Positions 9,453-35,747 of a stretch of 58,405 nucleotides of DNA are shown here, piece after piece (within the stretch, counting starts at the first letter, position 1; every line of letters begins with the position of its first letter). The stretch is from positions 1-58,405 of the forward strand of contig CAIMWE010000049.1 of assembly GCA_903845115.1 (NCBI GenBank). Direction: 5' to 3'. The DNA comes from an uncultured Acidobacteriota bacterium (GTDB lineage: Bacteria > Acidobacteriota > Thermoanaerobaculia > UBA5066). Under the pieces are notes generated by a model. It did no database searches. It was not told the origin of the DNA and was given only the letters and a program-made list of their open reading frames with translations. Position numbers and translations under genes: made by a program.

Positions 9453-10901
9453 GTGAGGCTCGTGATCGTGGGGGCCGGCCCGGCCGGCCTCACGGCGGCC
9501 TGGGAGAACGTCCGGCACGGAGGGACCTCGGTGGTTCTCGAGAAGGACGACGTGGTGGGAGGGATCGCCCGGACCGTCCAGCGGGACGGCTACCGGTTCG
9601 ACATCGGGGGGCACCGTTTCTTCACGAAGGTCCGGGAGGTGGAGGAGCTCTGGCACGAGGTCCTCGCCCACGACTTCATCCGCGTCCCGCGCCAGTCCCG
9701 GATCCTCTACCGGGGGAAGTTCTTCAGCTACCCCCTGAAGCCGGTCGAGGCGTTCTTCGGCCTCGGCCCGGTGGAGAGCTTCCTCTGTGCGCTCAGCTTC
9801 CTCTCCGCCCGGCTCTTCCCGAAGCGGCCCGAGGAGGACCTCGAGAGCTGGGTGTCGAACCGGTTCGGGGCTCGCCTCTTCCGGATCTTCTTCAAGACCT
9901 ACACGGAGAAGGTCTGGGGCGTGCCGTGCACCGAGATCAAGGCGGAGTGGGCCGCCCAGCGGATCCGCGGCCTCTCCCTCTTCAAGGCGGTTTGGCACGC
10001 GATCCGGAAGGACCCGACCATCAAGACGCTGATCGACGAGTTCGACTACCCGCGCCTGGGCCCCGGGCAGATGTGGGAGACCTTCCAGGCGAACGTCGAG
10101 GCAGCCGGCTCGAAGGTCCTCCTCGAGCACCCCGTCAGGCGGATCGCCTGGTCGAAGGGACGCGGGGTCGAGGCGATCGAGGCGGGAGGGAGAGGCGCCG
10201 GAGAGGCTGCCCGCTTCGAAGGCGACGCCTTCCTCTCCTCGATGCCGATCACCGAGCTCGTCGAGGCGCTCGACCCGCCGGCCCCGCCCGGCGTCCGGGC
10301 CGCCGCGGCCCGCCTTCGCTACCGGGACTTCATCTGCGTCGCCCTCGTCTTCGAAGGGGAGGGGTTCTTCCCCGACAACTGGGTCTACATCCACAGCCCG
10401 GAGCTGAAGGTGGGCCGCGTCCAGAACTTCAACAACTGGTCGAAGGCTCTCCTGCCCCGCGGAGGCGTCACCTGCCTCGGCCTCGAGTACTTCTGCTTCG
10501 ACACCGACCCGGTCTGGAAGGCGGCGGACGCGGAGCTGATCGCGTCGGCCGAGCGGGAGATCCGGGCAACCAGCCTGGTCCCGCCGGGCGCGCCGCTGGT
10601 CCAGGGCGCCGTCGTGAGGATGGAGAAGACCTACCCGATGTACGACCCCGGCTACGGCGAGTGCGTCGAGGCCGTGCGGCGGTTTGTCGAGGCGGAGCTG
10701 CCGAACCTCCAGCTCGTCGGCCGCAACGGCATGCACCGGTACAACAATCAAGACCACGCCATGCTCACCGCCATGTACGCGGTGAGGAACCTCTACGGCG
10801 AATCCCACGACCTCTGGACCGTGAACGTCGACGACGACTACCACGAGGAGACCCGGGAGACGAGACCTCAGCGGCGCGAGCGGACCGCGGCTTCCCGGTA
10901 G
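9453..10901 (+). CDS. FAD-dependent oxidoreductase, UDP-galactopyranose-mutase/amine-oxidase-like
   Basis: 482 aa soluble flavoprotein. FAD Rossmann motif VIVGAGPAGLTAA at 4-16, followed by the GG doublet region GGIARTVQRDGYRFDIGGHR typical of the amine-oxidase/protoporphyrinogen-oxidase/UGM clan, and an aromatic-rich core (RGKFFSYPLKP). Proteins of this subfamily commonly sit beside glycosyltransferases, and here a GT4, GT2s and GT-C enzymes follow. A role in sugar or lipid-sugar modification is inferred. The GTG at 9453 puts the FAD motif at the usual place; an in-frame TTG at 9408, 11 nt after a TACACT -10 (9391-9396), is an alternative. No RBS. The 3' end overlaps the convergent GT4 gene by 34 bp. 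Confidence 0.75.
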   Translation: MRLVIVGAGPAGLTAAWENVRHGGTSVVLEKDDVVGGIARTVQRDGYRFDIGGHRFFTKVREVEELWHEVLAHDFIRVPRQSRILYRGKFFSYPLKPVEAFFGLGPVESFLCALSFLSARLFPKRPEEDLESWVSNRFGARLFRIFFKTYTEKVWGVPCTEIKAEWAAQRIRGLSLFKAVWHAIRKDPTIKTLIDEFDYPRLGPGQMWETFQANVEAAGSKVLLEHPVRRIAWSKGRGVEAIEAGGRGAGEAARFEGDAFLSSMPITELVEALDPPAPPGVRAAAARLRYRDFICVALVFEGEGFFPDNWVYIHSPELKVGRVQNFNNWSKALLPRGGVTCLGLEYFCFDTDPVWKAADAELIASAEREIRATSLVPPGAPLVQGAVVRMEKTYPMYDPGYGECVEAVRRFVEAELPNLQLVGRNGMHRYNNQDHAMLTAMYAVRNLYGESHDLWTVNVDDDYHEETRETRPQRRERTAASR

Positions 10902-12013
10902 ACCGCCTCGAGCTGCTCCGCCACCCGCTCCCAGTCGAAGGCGGCGGCCCGCTCCACGAGGGCGGCCCGACCGCTGTCGGAGGTCGCGTCGAGCAGCTCC
11001 AGACACGCCGCGGCCACCGCTTCCGGCGCAGGTTCGGCCACGCGCCCTTTCACGGGCTCGTCGACGAGGTCCGGAAGGGCGCTCTGGGCCTCCCGGCAGA
11101 CGACCGCAGGGATACCGCAGCCCCACCCCTCCACCACCGTGATCCCGAACCCCTCCTTCCGGTGCGGGGCGAGGAGGAGCCGGCTCGACTTCATCAGGCC
11201 GTAGACCTCGGTGGAGCTCTCGACGAAGCCGGCGAAACGGACCGAGGAGACGATCCCGAGGGTGGCGGCAAGCCCCTCCAGCCGCGCGCGCTCGGGCCCG
11301 TCCCCGACCACCAGGAGCCTGAGCTCCGGCCGCTCCCGCCGGACGATCGCGAAGGCCCGGAGGGCCAGCTCGGCATTCTTGTGGGGGATCAGCCTCCCGA
11401 CCCAGATCAGGTCGGAGCGTTCCGCGGCCGGCGGCGCCCCGGCGATCTCCTCGAGGTCGATCCCGTTCGGAACGACGTGGACCTTCCCCGGGTCGACCCC
11501 GGCCGACGCCATCCTCCGGCGGGTGTGCTCGCTGACGGCGACGATCGTCGGCGACAGGGCGAGACAGGCCCTCTCCAGCGCCCGCCCCAGGAATCCGAGC
11601 CGCCCCAGCCGTTCGTCCCAGTAGCCGCCCCAGTACTCGTGCCACGTCACGACGAGCGCGCGGCCCTTCAGCCGGCTCACGAGCCAGGCGACCGGGATGG
11701 AGAAGAACGGGAAGTTGGCGACGTCCCAGACCTCCTCCCCGCTCCTGGCGAGCGGGCCCAGGAGCTGCAGCCCGAACGTCAGCGCCTCGGCGAGGCGGCG
11801 GCGGCCGCGGCCGTCGTGGAGCGGGACCGGCTCGCCGACCGACACGTACCGGCACCCGGGGAGGCACCCGGTTCCCGCGGCGTCCCAGGACCGGAACCCG
11901 TACAGCGCCACGTCGTGGCGGTTTCGGAGGTGCCGGGCGAGCTCGTGGTTCCGCCTCTGCACTCCGCCGGGCACGAACGGGTAGACGACGTCGTAGACGA
12001 GGGCGATGCGCAC
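10868..12013 (-). CDS. Glycosyltransferase family 4
   Basis: 381 aa GT-B retaining glycosyltransferase using a nucleotide sugar, cytoplasmic. N-terminal acceptor domain with YPFVPGGVQRRNHELARHL (about 11-29); C-terminal donor domain with VPNGIDLEEI, VGRLIPHKN and the E-x7-E motif in KEGFGITVVEGWGCGIPAV (near 288). The GTG at 12013 lies 5 bp after the stop of the GT2 gene upstream, so the two are one transcript. The end overlaps the convergent FAD gene in coding sequence. Acceptor and sugar not predictable; mannosyl/glucosyl transfer in surface glycan assembly is likely. Confidence 0.87.
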   Translation of the reverse strand: MRIALVYDVVYPFVPGGVQRRNHELARHLRNRHDVALYGFRSWDAAGTGCLPGCRYVSVGEPVPLHDGRGRRRLAEALTFGLQLLGPLARSGEEVWDVANFPFFSIPVAWLVSRLKGRALVVTWHEYWGGYWDERLGRLGFLGRALERACLALSPTIVAVSEHTRRRMASAGVDPGKVHVVPNGIDLEEIAGAPPAAERSDLIWVGRLIPHKNAELALRAFAIVRRERPELRLLVVGDGPERARLEGLAATLGIVSSVRFAGFVESSTEVYGLMKSSRLLLAPHRKEGFGITVVEGWGCGIPAVVCREAQSALPDLVDEPVKGRVAEPAPEAVAAACLELLDATSDSGRAALVERAAAFDWERVAEQLEAVYREAAVRSRR

Positions 12014-12018
12014 GCCGC

Positions 12019-13188
12019 CTACTTGCGCGCGAGCGACAGGACGCTCAGGAAGAAGCTCGAGAAGGCGGTCTGCACTCCGACCGTGATCAGCGTGACCGCC
12101 GGGATCACCATCCGGAGACTGTCGGGGTAGGACATCTGCCCGAATCCGACGTCGGCCCAGGCCAGGAGGGCCCGGATCATCAGGCCGACGCCGAGCACGA
12201 AGACGAAGAATGCCGCGATCACGCCGCGCTCGAGCGTGTAGATCCTGCCGAAACGGTTCGAGATCCCGGCGTCCGGGAGCAGCCCCGCCTGGATCGCGAA
12301 AATTCGAGTGAACAGGCCGAAGAAGCAGAGCTGGAGGCCGACGATCGTCGCCATCGAGCAGACGAGGAGCGTGTTCGTGTCGAGCAGGAACCTCCCGGCG
12401 CGGACCGGCCCCACCATGAGCCGGAGCCCGAGGGCGAGGCCCAGGAGCGTCAGGATCAGCCCGGGAACGAGGAAGAGCCACCGGGGCGAAAAGAGGAGCA
12501 TGAACCGGAGGTGCCGCCACCCGTCCCGCCAGCTCCGGAGGTGAGGCGGGCGGGACCTGCCGTCCGGGTGCAGCGTCACCGGGACCTCCGAGATCCTGAG
12601 CCCCGCGAGCGACGCCTTGATCACCATCTCGGAGGCGAACTCCATCCCGGTCGTCCGGAGGTCGATCGAGCTGATCGCCTGGCGCGAGAAGGCGCGGAGG
12701 CCGCAGTGGAAATCGTTGACGGGGATCCGGAAGAGAAGCCGCCCGATGAAGGAAAGCACCGGGTTCCCGATCCACCGGTGCTTCCAGGGCATCGCGCCCG
12801 GGAGGATTCGGCCCCCTCCCCTCGGCATCCGGCACCCCATCACGAGCTCCGATCCCTCCCGGAGGCACTCGATGAACGGGGCGAGGCTCGAGAAATCGTA
12901 GCTGGCGTCGGCGTCCCCCATCACGATCCAGCGGCCCCGGGCCTGCTCGATGCCGGCCCGCAGGGCGCTGCCGTACCCCTTCTCGGGGACCCGGACGACC
13001 CTCGCTCCGGCCTTCTCGGCGATCTCCACGGATCCGTCGGTACTGCCGTTGTCGGCCACGAGGACCTCTCCCCGGATCCCGAGTGTCTCGAGGGCCGCGC
13101 GCGCCTGACGGACGCAGGCGGCGATCGTCTCGGCCTCGTCCAGGCACGGCATGAGGACCGTGAGGACGAGAGGCTCGACTAGCGTCAT
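12019..13188 (-). CDS. GT2 polyprenyl-phosphate glycosyltransferase with membrane tail
   Basis: 389 aa. The N-terminal GT-A domain (about 10-235) is DPM-synthase-like: VLMPCLDEAETI, VADNGSTDGS, metal-binding DADASYD, and DFHCGLRAF. Several hydrophobic segments (about 240-375) anchor it. It probably moves a sugar from UDP/GDP-sugar to undecaprenyl phosphate at the inner membrane. The ATG at 13188 overlaps the stop of a 9-codon mini-ORF (ATGA) and has no Shine-Dalgarno of its own. First gene of a two-gene unit with the GT4. Confidence 0.85.
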   Translation of the reverse strand: MTLVEPLVLTVLMPCLDEAETIAACVRQARAALETLGIRGEVLVADNGSTDGSVEIAEKAGARVVRVPEKGYGSALRAGIEQARGRWIVMGDADASYDFSSLAPFIECLREGSELVMGCRMPRGGGRILPGAMPWKHRWIGNPVLSFIGRLLFRIPVNDFHCGLRAFSRQAISSIDLRTTGMEFASEMVIKASLAGLRISEVPVTLHPDGRSRPPHLRSWRDGWRHLRFMLLFSPRWLFLVPGLILTLLGLALGLRLMVGPVRAGRFLLDTNTLLVCSMATIVGLQLCFFGLFTRIFAIQAGLLPDAGISNRFGRIYTLERGVIAAFFVFVLGVGLMIRALLAWADVGFGQMSYPDSLRMVIPAVTLITVGVQTAFSSFFLSVLSLARK

Positions 13189-13214
13189 GCGCTTGCCAGG
13201 GGGTGCGGCACCAT
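13185..13214 (-). CDS. 9-codon leader mini-ORF before GT2 gene
   Basis: Reads MVPHPLASA then TGA; the TGA overlaps the GT2 start as ATGA. Its ATG (13214) lies exactly 7 nt after a TACCCT box (13222-13227), so the mRNA would begin at or next to this AUG. Ribosomes loading on the leaderless mini-ORF could reinitiate at the GT2 start. The same design precedes ftsK. No evidence that the peptide itself acts. Confidence 0.45.
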   Translation of the reverse strand: MVPHPLASA

Positions 13215-13221
13215 GCCGGGA

Positions 13222-13227
13222 AGGGTA
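13222..13227 (-). promoter_or_regulatory. -10 box TACCCT before mini-ORF/GT2
   Basis: Minus strand TACCCT followed by 7 nt and the mini-ORF ATG. The spacing matches the other leaderless promoters in this window. No clear -35. Confidence 0.4.
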
Positions 13228-13273
13228 GCCGAAGCGGAGACGAGCGCCAACGGCGGGGGGACGCCCGGTTCGA

Positions 13274-13282
13274 TGCTAGACT
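13274..13282 (+). promoter_or_regulatory. Extended -10 TGCTAGACT before GT-C gene
   Basis: TGC-TAGACT 45 nt before the TTG start at 13328. The 13-mer TGCTAGACTTTTC recurs exactly at 6230-6242. Exactly 7 nt downstream (13290) an open frame of 13 codons runs to a TGA overlapping the TTG start (TTGA), but its first codon is ATC, so a leader ORF here is uncertain. Confidence 0.4.
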
Positions 13283-13327
13283 TTTCTCCATCCGGCTCTC
13301 TCATCGGCCCTGCAGGGCGGCGAACGC

Positions 13328-14980
13328 TTGAACGACGGCCAGAGACCCACCTCGAAACTCCTGAGGCCTCTCTCGGCGACGGCACTGGTCGCGCTCGCCG
13401 GGTATGCATTGTCGACCCGCCTGTCGTCCTTCTCCACCCTGTGGCCGTACCGGCCTCCCGCGCTGGGGGTCTTCTACTACCTCTACGAACGCAACGAGCC
13501 GACCCTCTTCCTTCTTTCCGCCCTGTTCCTGCTCTGCGCCGGGCTGTGGCTGCGCCGGTCGGTCGAGACGAGCCCCTCGCCGGCCGCGGCGCCGCTCCCG
13601 TCGCGAACCGGCCTCCTCGCCCTCTTCGTCCTCGGGGTCACGTCGGCCGGAACGATCCTCGTCTACCGCTCCTACTTCCTGTCGATGGACGAGTACATGG
13701 CCCACTACCAGGCGCTGATCCTCTCGAACGGCCACCTGCTGGCCAGGGTGCCCGATTCGTGGATGCCGTTCGAGGAGGCCCTGAGACCGTTGTTCGCGCA
13801 GTTCAACCCGGCTTTTCAGTCCTGGTACTCCGCGTACCTTCCGGGATACGCGGCCATCCGGGCCCTTTTCGCCGTCGCCGGGGCCGAGGTATTCACGAAC
13901 GCCGTTCTCTCCGCCCTGACGATCCTGGCCGTTGCTGCCGCCGCCCGGCGGATCTGGCCCGGGGAACCGGACGCCCCGTTCGTCTCGGCCCTCCTCCTGG
14001 CGACCTCGTCGCAGCTCCTCGTCAACGGCATGACGGCCTACGCGATGCCGGCGCACCTCCTCCTGAGCCTGGTCTGGCTCCTCCTCCACCTCCACCCTTC
14101 GCGGCGGGCAGCCCTGGCCGTGCCATGGATCGGAATTCTCGCCCTCACCCTGCACCAGCCCAACATCCACGCGCTGTTCGTCTGTCCCTTTATCGTGCGC
14201 CTGGTCATCGAGCGGCGCTGGCGCCGTTTCACGTACTACGGCGGGGTCTACCTCCTGGGGACCGGCCTCTCGTTTCTCTGGCTCCGGATCGGCCAGCTGA
14301 AAGGGGGGCAAGCGACGATAGCCAACATCTTCGCTCTGCCTGGCCCTGCGAATCTCCTTATCCAGGTCCTTCAGGGAATCCTCCTGGTGAACTGGCAGAA
14401 CCCGCTCCTGTTCGTCCTGCTGGCGGCCGGACTCGCCGCCTGGCGAGGGTTCCCGCCCGCGGCCCGCGACCTCCTCGGGTCCGCGGTTCTCACAATCGGT
14501 TTCTTCGCGTTCTTCCCGCTCGACCAGGGCCACGGATGGGGAGACCGGTACGCCCATTCGATCCTCGGGAACCTCGCGCTGCTCGCCATCCCGGGATGGG
14601 CGGTCCTCCGATCCTCCGCCGGTCCTCACAAGGCGAGACGGCTTCTCGGAGCGGCGACCGCCTTCTCGCTGCTCCTCGCGTTTCCGGTCCGGTCGTTTCA
14701 GGTCTCCGAGTTCGTCGCGCCGTTCGCCCGCGCGTCGGCGTATCTGGAGACGCGCTCCGCTGACTTCGTCCTGTTCGATCCGCAGTCCGTCTGGTACGGC
14801 CAGGACCTCGTCCGCAACGATCCGTTCCTCAGGAACCGGCCACTCGTTCTCTCGCTCCCGGCCCTCGGAACGTCCGACATCCCCACGCTCGCCGCGATGG
14901 GACGGACCGTCATGGTCACCCCGAGGGAGATGGCCGTCTTGGGTTTGAGGACCCGCCGGGTCACAATGAACGGACGATGA
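13328..14980 (+). CDS. GT-C membrane glycosyltransferase (GT39/ArnT-like)
   Basis: 550 aa integral membrane protein with about ten hydrophobic segments, the first at roughly 12-28. A periplasmic-loop acidic motif SMDEYMAHYQ near 120 matches the D-E signature of GT-C enzymes, which transfer sugar from a polyprenyl-phosphate donor on the periplasmic face. A soluble C-terminal part (about 460-550) follows. Start is TTG at 13328 (no ATG/GTG nearby in frame); its stop overlaps the next start (ATGA). Downstream genes supply a DPM-synthase-like enzyme and a small carrier, as in arnT-arnC-arnE/F. GT family inferred from topology and motif. Confidence 0.68.
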   Translation: MNDGQRPTSKLLRPLSATALVALAGYALSTRLSSFSTLWPYRPPALGVFYYLYERNEPTLFLLSALFLLCAGLWLRRSVETSPSPAAAPLPSRTGLLALFVLGVTSAGTILVYRSYFLSMDEYMAHYQALILSNGHLLARVPDSWMPFEEALRPLFAQFNPAFQSWYSAYLPGYAAIRALFAVAGAEVFTNAVLSALTILAVAAAARRIWPGEPDAPFVSALLLATSSQLLVNGMTAYAMPAHLLLSLVWLLLHLHPSRRAALAVPWIGILALTLHQPNIHALFVCPFIVRLVIERRWRRFTYYGGVYLLGTGLSFLWLRIGQLKGGQATIANIFALPGPANLLIQVLQGILLVNWQNPLLFVLLAAGLAAWRGFPPAARDLLGSAVLTIGFFAFFPLDQGHGWGDRYAHSILGNLALLAIPGWAVLRSSAGPHKARRLLGAATAFSLLLAFPVRSFQVSEFVAPFARASAYLETRSADFVLFDPQSVWYGQDLVRNDPFLRNRPLVLSLPALGTSDIPTLAAMGRTVMVTPREMAVLGLRTRRVTMNGR

Positions 14981-33204: not shown

Positions 33205-35691
33205 TCAACTGATCCGGTTCCGGTCGATCTCCTCGTAGAAATCGGTCGCGACGAGGATCTCCCGGCTCTTCGATCCGCCGGCCGGGGGGCCGACGATTCC
33301 GTCCCGCTGCATCAGGTCGATCAGCTTCCCCGCCCTCGAGAATCCGATCTCGAGCCGCCGCTGGAGGAACGAGATCGAGGCCATCCTCTCCCGGACGACG
33401 AGGCGGGCTGCCTGCTCGTACATCGGGTCGTTGTCGTCCGCTCCGGTCCGCCCGCCCCGCGCGGCTGAGTCCGCCTCGGCCTCGCGGTCGGCGATGACCG
33501 TGGCGTCGTAGAGCGGCTTCCCCTGCTTCTTCAGGAAACGGCAGATCTCCTTCGTCTCGTCCCCGCCGATGAAGCCGCCGTGGATCCGCTGGAGGTAGCT
33601 GGTGCCGGGCGCGAGGTAGAGAAAGTCCCCCGCCCCCAGGAGGGCCTCGGCGCCGACCGCGTCGAGGATGGTCCGCGAGTCGATCTTCGTCCGCGTCGTG
33701 AAGGCGACCCGGCACGGGAGATTCGCCTTGATCGTCCCCGTGATGACGTCGACCGACGGCCGCTGCGTCGCGAGGATCAGGTGGATTCCGATCGCGCGCG
33801 CCTTCTGCGCCAGCCGCGCCACCGACTCCTCGATGTCCCTCGGCGCCGTCATCATCAGGTCGGCCAGCTCGTCGATCACGATGACGATGTAGGGCATCGG
33901 CGAGATGCTCCCGTCGTCGTCGGCCTTCAGCTTCTCGCCGAGCTTCTCGCGGACCTCGGCCACCGCCGCGGGGTCCCGGATCGCCGCGTTGTACTGCTCG
34001 ATGTTCCGGACCCCCGGCCACTCGGAGAGGAGCTTGTAGCGGCTCTCCATCTCGTCGACCGCCCACTTGAGCGCGTTCGCCGCCTTCTTCGGGTCGACGA
34101 CCACCGGCACGAGGAGGTGCGGCAGGTCCTCGTAGTCCTTCATGTCGTTCATCTTCGGGTCGACGAAGATGAACTTCACCTCGTCGGGCCGCGCCTTGTA
34201 GAGGATGGAGGTGATCATCCCGTTCAGCCCCACGCTCTTCCCGGCGCCGGTCATGCCGGCCACGAGGAGGTGCGGCATCCGGGCCAGGTCGGCGACGACC
34301 GGCTCCCCCTCGACGTCGATCCCGAGCGCGATCGTCAGGAGCGACGGCGACTTGCGGAACCGCTCGCTCTCGACGACCTCCCGGAGGGCGATCAGCTCCC
34401 GGTAGCGGTTCGGCACCTCGATCCCGACCGCGGCCCGGCCCGGGATCCGCTCGATCCGGACCTTCTCGGCGGCGAGGGCGAGGGCCAGGTCGTTCTCCAG
34501 CCCCGAGACCTTCGCCACCTTGACGCCGGCCGAGGGGCGGAACTCGTAGGTGGTGACGACGGGTCCGGGCGTGTAGGTGTCGACGGTCCCCTCCACGTCG
34601 AACTCGAGGCACTTCGCCGTGATCAGCTCCATCGTCTGCTGGAACTCCTCGCGGCTCTTCTCGCGGTCGCGCTTGGGAGCCGCGCGCAGGAGGCGCTCGG
34701 GGGGGAAGATCCAGCCGTTCGACTCCTTCGACGACGGGAACGGGAGAACCCGCTGGGGGACGGCCTTCTTGACCAGCTGCGCGGGGTGCGAGACGGGCCG
34801 GGGGATCGGAGGCGGAGCCGGTCTCCCGGGCGCCGGGAGAGGTCCCTCCGGGGCCGCAGGGTCGGCCGGGGCAGCCGGCGGCGCCGCTTTCTGGATCGAG
34901 AACCGCCCCGGACCGCTCTTTTCCCGGACGCGCAGCGTGGCGATCGAGGGGATGTAGACGACCTGCCCCCCCTCGTCTTCCTCCTCCGGGACGGGCGGGC
35001 GGCTCGCGCCGGTCCGCTCCCTCTCGAGGTGCTTGCGCACCACGTCGCGCCGCTGGCTCTCCTTCTGCTCCTGCTCCTTCCGCCGGTTCCACTCGAGGAC
35101 GGTCGTCTGCCACCATCCCGAAAGTCGGACGCGGCCGCGTCGGAGGCCCTCCCCCAGGGAGAGGGAGGTCGCGAGCAGGAGACCGATCAGCAGCGTCGCG
35201 ACGAGGAAGATCGAGGCGCCGGGCGTGTTGAGGGCCGCCACGGCGGCCGCTCCCAGAAGCTCTCCGACGAACCCGCCGGCCGAGAGCCCGCCTCCGAAGA
35301 ACCCCGGGCGCCCGACAGCGATGTGGAGGAGCGGCGCGACGGCGAGGACCACGACGAGGAGCCCGAGGAGCTTCGTCCCGGGGGCGCCGAGCCCCCGCGA
35401 GAGGAACCGGCGGAAGCCGACGCCGAGGACCGCTACGGGAAGGACGAGCGCGGCGAAGCCGAAGAACTGGAACGCGCCTTCGGCGAACGACGCCCCGACC
35501 CGGCCCGCCCAGTTGCGGGGCCTGGCAGCCGGGTCGGCGACGGACGAGAAGAGGGACGGGTCCCCGGCGTGGTAGGTGAGGAGCGCGACGAGCAGGAGGA
35601 GACCTGCCATGAGGATCACGATCCCGAGGAACTCGTCCCGGCCCCGCGCCGGCGGGGCGGAAGCAGGGGGAGTGGTCACCCGCTCGCTCAT
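33205..35691 (-). CDS. ftsK: DNA translocase FtsK/SpoIIIE
   Basis: 828 aa septal DNA pump for chromosome segregation. Four membrane segments (about 24-180); a proline-rich linker (180-340); RecA-like motor with Walker A VAGMTGAGKSVGLNGMI near 483, IFVDPKMNDMKDYEDLPHL near 513 and Walker B IVIDELADLMM near 610; C-terminal gamma winged helix (about 765-828, SISFLQRRLEIGFSRAGKL) that reads KOPS-type sites. ATG at 35691 overlaps the stop of a 14-codon mini-ORF (ATGA) and has no own Shine-Dalgarno. The linker is short compared with E. coli FtsK. Confidence 0.95.
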   Translation of the reverse strand: MSERVTTPPASAPPARGRDEFLGIVILMAGLLLLVALLTYHAGDPSLFSSVADPAARPRNWAGRVGASFAEGAFQFFGFAALVLPVAVLGVGFRRFLSRGLGAPGTKLLGLLVVVLAVAPLLHIAVGRPGFFGGGLSAGGFVGELLGAAAVAALNTPGASIFLVATLLIGLLLATSLSLGEGLRRGRVRLSGWWQTTVLEWNRRKEQEQKESQRRDVVRKHLERERTGASRPPVPEEEDEGGQVVYIPSIATLRVREKSGPGRFSIQKAAPPAAPADPAAPEGPLPAPGRPAPPPIPRPVSHPAQLVKKAVPQRVLPFPSSKESNGWIFPPERLLRAAPKRDREKSREEFQQTMELITAKCLEFDVEGTVDTYTPGPVVTTYEFRPSAGVKVAKVSGLENDLALALAAEKVRIERIPGRAAVGIEVPNRYRELIALREVVESERFRKSPSLLTIALGIDVEGEPVVADLARMPHLLVAGMTGAGKSVGLNGMITSILYKARPDEVKFIFVDPKMNDMKDYEDLPHLLVPVVVDPKKAANALKWAVDEMESRYKLLSEWPGVRNIEQYNAAIRDPAAVAEVREKLGEKLKADDDGSISPMPYIVIVIDELADLMMTAPRDIEESVARLAQKARAIGIHLILATQRPSVDVITGTIKANLPCRVAFTTRTKIDSRTILDAVGAEALLGAGDFLYLAPGTSYLQRIHGGFIGGDETKEICRFLKKQGKPLYDATVIADREAEADSAARGGRTGADDNDPMYEQAARLVVRERMASISFLQRRLEIGFSRAGKLIDLMQRDGIVGPPAGGSKSREILVATDFYEEIDRNRIS

Positions 35692-35732
35692 TCGGCACCA
35701 CCGGAAACCGCCTGCCGGCAGGAGAGCGACAT
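35688..35732 (-). CDS. 14-codon leader mini-ORF before ftsK
   Basis: Reads MSLSCRQAVSGGAE then TGA; the TGA overlaps the ftsK start as ATGA. Its ATG (35732) lies 6 nt after TGT-TACAAT, so the mRNA probably starts at this AUG. Contains a CTGCCGGCAG palindrome. Likely a ribosome-loading cistron for ftsK by termination-reinitiation; the peptide is probably not functional. Same layout as at 13185-13214. Confidence 0.5.
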   Translation of the reverse strand: MSLSCRQAVSGGAE

Positions 35733-35738
35733 CGAGAG

Positions 35739-35747
35739 ATTGTAACA
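35739..35747 (-). promoter_or_regulatory. Extended -10 TGTTACAAT before mini-ORF/ftsK
   Basis: Minus strand TGT-TACAAT, 5 of 6 to the -10 consensus, 6 nt before the mini-ORF ATG. No good -35. Confidence 0.6.

Follow-up and report, generated by a model that had tools for sequence, protein, structure and literature searches.

A putative leaderless mini-ORF joined to a GT2 glycosyltransferase gene by an ATGA overlap, and the probable but rare recurrence of this layout, in an uncultured Acidobacteriota bacterium

Introduction

The systems closest to the arrangement analysed here are known from mycobacteria. In Mycobacterium, "coupled" leaderless small ORFs with an RTG start, a length of 5-50 codons and an RTGA joint to the next gene are over-represented. 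Transcript-end mapping together with ribosome profiling established this class, in which one example keeps the coupling and not the peptide (Shell et al. 2015, PMC4633059). In the uPPE2-ppe2 pair of M. tuberculosis, reinitiation takes place at an AUGA overlap without a Shine-Dalgarno sequence, and translation of ppe2 needs the upstream ORF (uORF; PMC11260477). In leaderless bacterial genes of the TA-led type, a TANNNT element precedes the start by about 12 nt (Zheng et al. 2011, PMC3160421), and a 2025 review gives ribosome delivery to the coupled gene as the proposed role of short ORFs, MIRU insertions included (PMC12548453). Among the matches listed, no report of such leaderless coupled mini-ORFs from outside mycobacteria was noticed, although reports of this kind may exist.

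The present analysis concerns a mini-ORF that ends on the start codon of a GT2 glycosyltransferase gene in a stretch of 58,405 nt of DNA, hereafter the window, from an uncultured Acidobacteriota bacterium. With nine codons, the mini-ORF lies inside the 5-50 codon range of the coupled leaderless small ORFs, and it also has the RTGA overlap.

Materials and Methods

The genome is a draft assembly of 5.85 Mb in 305 contigs, of which the window is one whole contig. The sample comprised 121 stretches including the window, with 1,933,894 bases (1.93 of 5.85 Mb), 24,360 of them read as N. In this sample, 1,472 genes were called from codon usage, with five genes of the window as the seed. The -10 matrix was built from the frequencies of aligned leaderless genes, with the fixed positions softened by hand, and was used for counting at a threshold of 6. 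Shine-Dalgarno run lengths were taken against a reference sequence.

The layout was defined as TANNNT, 6-10 nt, ATG or GTG, and a frame of 3-35 codons that closes on the overlap with the following gene. It was sought in 1,393 genes, of which 875 had at least 30 nt of free upstream DNA and 344 of these started with NTGA. The expectation was taken from 100 dinucleotide shuffles of the upstream DNA and from five other spacing bins in the real sequence; these control bins are uneven, and the far ones have less upstream room. Matches lying inside upstream genes were counted apart (2 of the 15 TANNNT matches at spacing 6-10). Beyond the genus, 12 other genomes of the family were available; GT2 matches with E values of 1e-60 or lower came from eight of these, of which L024 lacks the 5' end of the gene.

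Results

Reading of the letters confirmed the arrangement that the initial annotation had described before the GT2 gene. Read on the minus strand, TACCCT (13227-13222) stands 7 nt before an ATG (13214-13212) that opens nine codons (MVPHPLASA), and the TGA of this mini-ORF (13187-13185) shares letters with the GT2 ATG (13188-13186) as ATGA (Table 1). The spacing of 7 nt falls in the 6-10 nt peak of this genome, and a leaderless mRNA start is predicted at the mini-ORF. The GT2 frame contains no ATG, GTG or TTG from 13188 back to an in-frame stop 90 nt upstream, and 13188 is therefore the first possible usual start of the gene. No Shine-Dalgarno run of 4 or more was found for this codon, and the gene does not itself qualify as TA-led, the best -10 score at 13188 being -9.0 when a box was sought 5-8 nt before its own start. 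A scan for E. coli-type consensus promoters reported none in 13100-13400; in the same interval, no terminator-like site was found, and the stop of the peptide sits on the GT2 start. For the GT2 start codon, folding of 80 nt (z -2.23) predicts partial pairing within a small hairpin. The GT4-like gene directly downstream belongs perhaps to the same operon.

Table 1. Positions in the window of the features at the GT2 and ftsK loci
Feature	Position	Strand	Remarks
-10 box TACCCT	13222..13227	-	matrix score 5.8 including the base after the box; genome -10 consensus TAGA(A/C)T then C
Possible -35 box TTGGCG, weak	13245..13250	-	17 nt from the -10 box; by eye
Mini-ORF, 9 codons (MVPHPLASA) and TGA	13185..13214	-	read from sequence
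ATGA stop/start overlap	13185..13188	-	read from sequence
GT2 glycosyltransferase, PF00535, 389 aa	12019..13188	-	longest Shine-Dalgarno run 3
GT4-like glycosyltransferase directly downstream of GT2	10868..12013	-	listed NCBIfam matches below their cut-offs
TAGACT, possible -10 of divergent gene	13277..13282	+	codon 7 nt on (13290) is ATC
Divergent gene, called GT-C in the initial annotation, 550 aa	13328..14980	+	TTG start in ORF list
Sister mini-ORF: TACAAT, 6 nt, ATG (35732), 14 codons, ATGA onto ftsK	35688..35744	-	read from sequence
ftsK DNA translocase	33205..35691	-	PF01580, PF13491, PF17854, PF09397

A second instance of the layout had been pointed out before ftsK, and the corresponding recipe (TANNNT, 6-8 nt, ATG or GTG, 5-25 codons, NTGA), applied to both strands of the window, returned exactly these two matches, ftsK and GT2. 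The divergent gene had been offered as a possible third case. Its frame does open on ATC, as had been stated, and the case was rejected because this codon, 7 nt behind TAGACT, stands where a start codon is needed. No Pfam or NCBIfam match was obtained for the divergent gene, and its start lies at 13328 in the ORF list as compared to 13409 in the codon-usage calls.

Leaderless genes are real in the sampled genome. Among 1,410 starts, TANNNT was located 6, 7, 8, 9, and 10 nt upstream in, respectively, 61, 22, 22, 25, and 12 cases, a total of 142, while 20.6 were expected from spacings 20-79 (about 4 per position elsewhere). Alignment of the leaderless genes revealed an element composed of TA, a favoured G, A, A or C, and T, followed by C; a -35 box was also sought in this alignment, and none stood out. 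A -10 box was present 6-10 nt before the gene's own start in 159 of the 1,393 genes, against a background of about 22, and a Shine-Dalgarno run of at least 4 was found in 10% of the 132 TANNNT genes with free upstream DNA as compared to 46% of the 732 others. A genome of the same family (G004; 385,162 bases, 272 starts) showed an alike -10 matrix profile, with counts of 14, 6, 7, 9, and 4 at spacings 6-10 versus 0.93 expected. At 40 places, as compared to about 8.5 expected, a -10 box was also observed 6-10 nt before an ATG or GTG that lies upstream of a called start in the same frame, and these are likely true leaderless starts missed by the choice of start. LpxC was found in 20 of the 20 genomes searched (the sampled genome and 19 relatives); of 14 named controls, 4 had it. 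Its presence in all 20 points to a lipopolysaccharide-type diderm and not to an actinobacterium. The sampled genome has two LpxC matches (G000:C90:6243-7043 and G000:C34:4598-5398) and the other 19 have one each.

The layout of box, mini-ORF and NTGA overlap was found in 11 of the 344 NTGA genes with free upstream DNA. The shuffled upstream DNA gave 1.81 ± 1.25 genes, with a maximum of 5 and no shuffle reaching 11, and the five other spacing bins of the real sequence gave 6, 0, 2, 4, and 2 genes (mean 2.8; Poisson p = 1.6e-4). When the -10 matrix was used, 10 genes were counted versus 1.86 in shuffled DNA and 3.4 from the spacing bins (p = 0.003), and a stricter scan gave 9 genes versus 3.5 expected (p = 0.011). 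The matrix-counted genes include ftsK and leave out GT2, because its box scores 5.8 and the threshold is 6. Across 64 motifs of the form XYNNNZ submitted to the same test (z values with a mean of 0.40 and an SD of 1.17), TANNNT ranked first, with a z of 4.5. In G004, the TANNNT version returned 2 genes as compared to 0.20 in shuffled DNA (2 of 100 shuffles reached 2), and the matrix version returned 1 as compared to 0.32 (29 of 100 shuffles reached 1). The products of the 11 genes are unrelated: a GH57 branching-enzyme-like protein, FtsK, an aldehyde dehydrogenase, a TPP enzyme, a response regulator-cyclase, a GT4-type and a GT2 glycosyltransferase, an unassigned protein, two methyltransferases, and a phosphoesterase. 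A scan of the kind that the initial annotation had proposed, run here on a third of the genome, gave a frequency above that in shuffled upstream DNA; at the level of the class, the excess is about 2.5-6 fold.

The controls temper this excess. TGNNNT came second of the 64 motifs (10 genes versus 3.0, z 3.7) and shares no gene with the TANNNT set. Since this control nearly equals TANNNT, the Poisson value overstates the case, and the rank of 1 in 64 motifs is the fairer measure. Before ordinary gene starts TGNNNT is not enriched (41 versus 35.8 expected) and is no start-site box, although it is in excess 6-10 nt before the starts of NTGA mini-ORFs. Matches at spacings 6-10 and at the other 26 spacings amounted, respectively, to 13 and 18 for TANNNT, 11 and 19 for TG...T, 7 and 31 for AT...T, 4 and 16 for TT...A, 2 and 10 for TA...A, 4 and 42 for CA...T, 7 and 35 for GA...T, 8 and 65 for TC...T, 4 and 14 for TA...G, and 6 and 15 for TA...C. 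The control bin of 0-4 nt, with its six TANNNT mini-ORF matches, exceeds each of the other control bins. The stop of the mini-ORF fell on the overlap in 9 of 26 cases behind a well-spaced -10 box and in 17 of 63 behind a badly spaced one, and A follows NTG in 665 of the 1,410 starts, so that NTGA is common anyway; these figures therefore do not show that mini-ORF stops favour the overlap above other positions. Furthermore, a Shine-Dalgarno run of at least 4 is present in 7 of the 11 layout genes, for which the mini-ORF may thus be needless; GT2 (run of 3) and ftsK (0) are without one.

Comparison with relatives revealed how the GT2 start is approached elsewhere in the family. In all seven readable family orthologs (L009-L014 and L018), GACAAT or CAGAAT precedes the best-scoring in-frame start by 5-7 nt, with -10 scores of 5.2 to 7.4 at the gene's own start. 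This start stands 13-17 residues before a conserved proline; because 13188 stands 14 residues before it, 13188 is taken to be the homologous start codon. The difference in the present genome, as compared to the seven orthologs, is that the -10 box is 26 nt further out, with the mini-ORF in between. Immediately ahead of the leaderless GT2 start, several of these orthologs have in common a longer block, read by eye as roughly CGGACTCGGCGACAAT, of which the window gene has only part. In a wider set of 95 loci with an examinable 5' end, composed of this gene and loci from many phyla, a -10-like element precedes an in-frame start by 5-8 nt in 19 cases, and an NTGA mini-ORF behind a -10-like element was found at two of the 95, one being this gene. 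The mini-ORF layout was absent from the seven family GT2 orthologs and from the ftsK orthologs that were read, and since it is missing in these relatives, no conservation backs a function at either locus. In the genome of the same genus (G001, 77% complete), neither GT2 nor ftsK was matched at the thresholds applied.

At the ftsK locus, the gene follows a KsgA-type gene (PF00398) in the window genome, and the 79 nt between them contain the box and the mini-ORF. In the 10 family genomes in which the 5' end of ftsK is shown (G004 not among them), ftsK is preceded by a gene with an UppP-like C-terminus, in which PF02673 was found in the three cases tested. The uppP stop overlaps a possible ftsK start as ATGA, TGATG or TAGTG in 7 of these 10 genomes (L227, L228, L229, L230, L232, L243, and L245), and no such overlap was found in L231, L234, and L236. 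The GT2 and ftsK comparisons thus place both mini-ORFs where relatives bring the ribosome to the same start by other means.

Discussion

We regard delivery of the ribosome to GT2 by termination and reinitiation from a leaderless mini-ORF as slightly favoured, with a probability of about 0.52. Transcription would start on the mini-ORF ATG or no more than a few bases from it, as predicted from the spacing of the -10 box; a ribosome would initiate without a leader on the 5'-terminal AUG, read nine codons, terminate at the UGA and restart at the overlapping GT2 AUG, which has a Shine-Dalgarno run of at most three bases. The passing ribosome would also open the small hairpin that is predicted to involve the GT2 start, and the peptide MVPHPLASA would be a by-product. 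By descent, the GT2 start codon would be the old leaderless start, whose promoter now lies 26 nt further out, the mini-ORF bridging the gap. Transcription start, mini-ORF translation and reinitiation are all steps that we infer from the sequence.

A single instance of the layout is indistinguishable from chance, and a mini-ORF placed by chance is a possible explanation, although a less favoured one. GT2 would then start alone at 13188, its mRNA having a short leader (about 26 nt) or coming from elsewhere, and the positions of the ATG and of the ATGA would follow from common NTGA starts and from GC-rich, open DNA. The frequency of A after NTG, the 2-4 such genes or so that are expected in the sample, the similar excess reached by TGNNNT and the failure to find the layout in family relatives all agree with this explanation. 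It sits less well with the class-level excess and with a Shine-Dalgarno run shorter than 4 at 13188; moreover, in a genome with leaderless genes, an AUG at or near the 5' end of an mRNA would likely be used.

An alternative in which the mini-ORF encodes the real N-terminus of GT2, and has lost the frame through a one-base assembly error or a genuine indel of recent date, appears improbable. The intact gene would be leaderless from 13214, in keeping with the in-frame leaderless starts of the seven family orthologs, and the sequence is that of one draft assembly of 305 contigs; but this would place the start 23 residues ahead of the conserved proline, outside the range of the relatives into which 13188 falls, and ten other sampled genes show the layout. 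Control by a leader peptide, in which the nine residues would sense something through attenuation or ribosome arrest, is very improbable: apart from a short frame preceding the gene, it would have to do without a run of one amino acid, without a terminator-like site in 13100-13400, without room ahead of the gene, and without any such mini-ORF in the seven family orthologs.

The initial annotation had read the recurrence of the layout at ftsK as a general translation strategy. The recurrence itself held, in that the layout exceeds shuffled DNA and other spacings and TANNNT ranks first among the motifs, and the excess is probably real but modest, perhaps 5-9 genes above chance in a third of the genome. 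The generality did not hold: the layout is present in 11 of 1,393 genes, as compared to the 159 that have a -10 box before their own start, and the TGNNNT excess is nearly the same, so the recurrence is probable but rare, and no general strategy. More speculatively, and with considerable doubt, leaderless mini-ORFs may act as evolutionary adaptors in this lineage, where a few out-of-frame codons ending in NTGA would supply a start lacking a Shine-Dalgarno sequence after its gene has acquired a distant promoter, whether the gene was originally leaderless (GT2) or an overlapping second gene (ftsK behind uppP). If reinitiation from the mini-ORF works as proposed, coupled ORFs of this leaderless kind occur beyond mycobacteria, and they should be taken into account when starts are annotated in such genomes. 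Comparison within the family amounts to a before/after pair, with a direct leaderless start in relatives and a displaced promoter plus mini-ORF here, which lets the cost and gain of the mini-ORF be measured.

The layout is of a kind already described in mycobacteria and seems to recur, rarely, in an unrelated bacterium. In size and in the RTGA overlap, the mini-ORF resembles the coupled ORFs of Mycobacterium (PMC4633059), a leaderless RTG start being predicted here; it differs from them in that it is predicted from sequence, belongs to an LpxC-bearing lineage, is rare, and was not found in relatives at two loci. As in the uPPE2-ppe2 pair, an out-of-frame ORF overlaps, via AUGA, a gene without a Shine-Dalgarno sequence, whereas the uPPE2 uORF is not leaderless, being served by a Shine-Dalgarno sequence of its own and having a riboswitch (PMC11260477). 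The likeness to TA-led genes (PMC3160421) lies in the TANNNT element of the genome sample and in the GACAAT or CAGAAT before GT2 in relatives, although here the element would serve the mini-ORF and not GT2 directly. With the short ORFs of the review (PMC12548453), the mini-ORF shares a proposed role that consists only of bringing the ribosome to the coupled gene; MIRUs are mobile repeats, and the comparison with them is by this proposed role alone.
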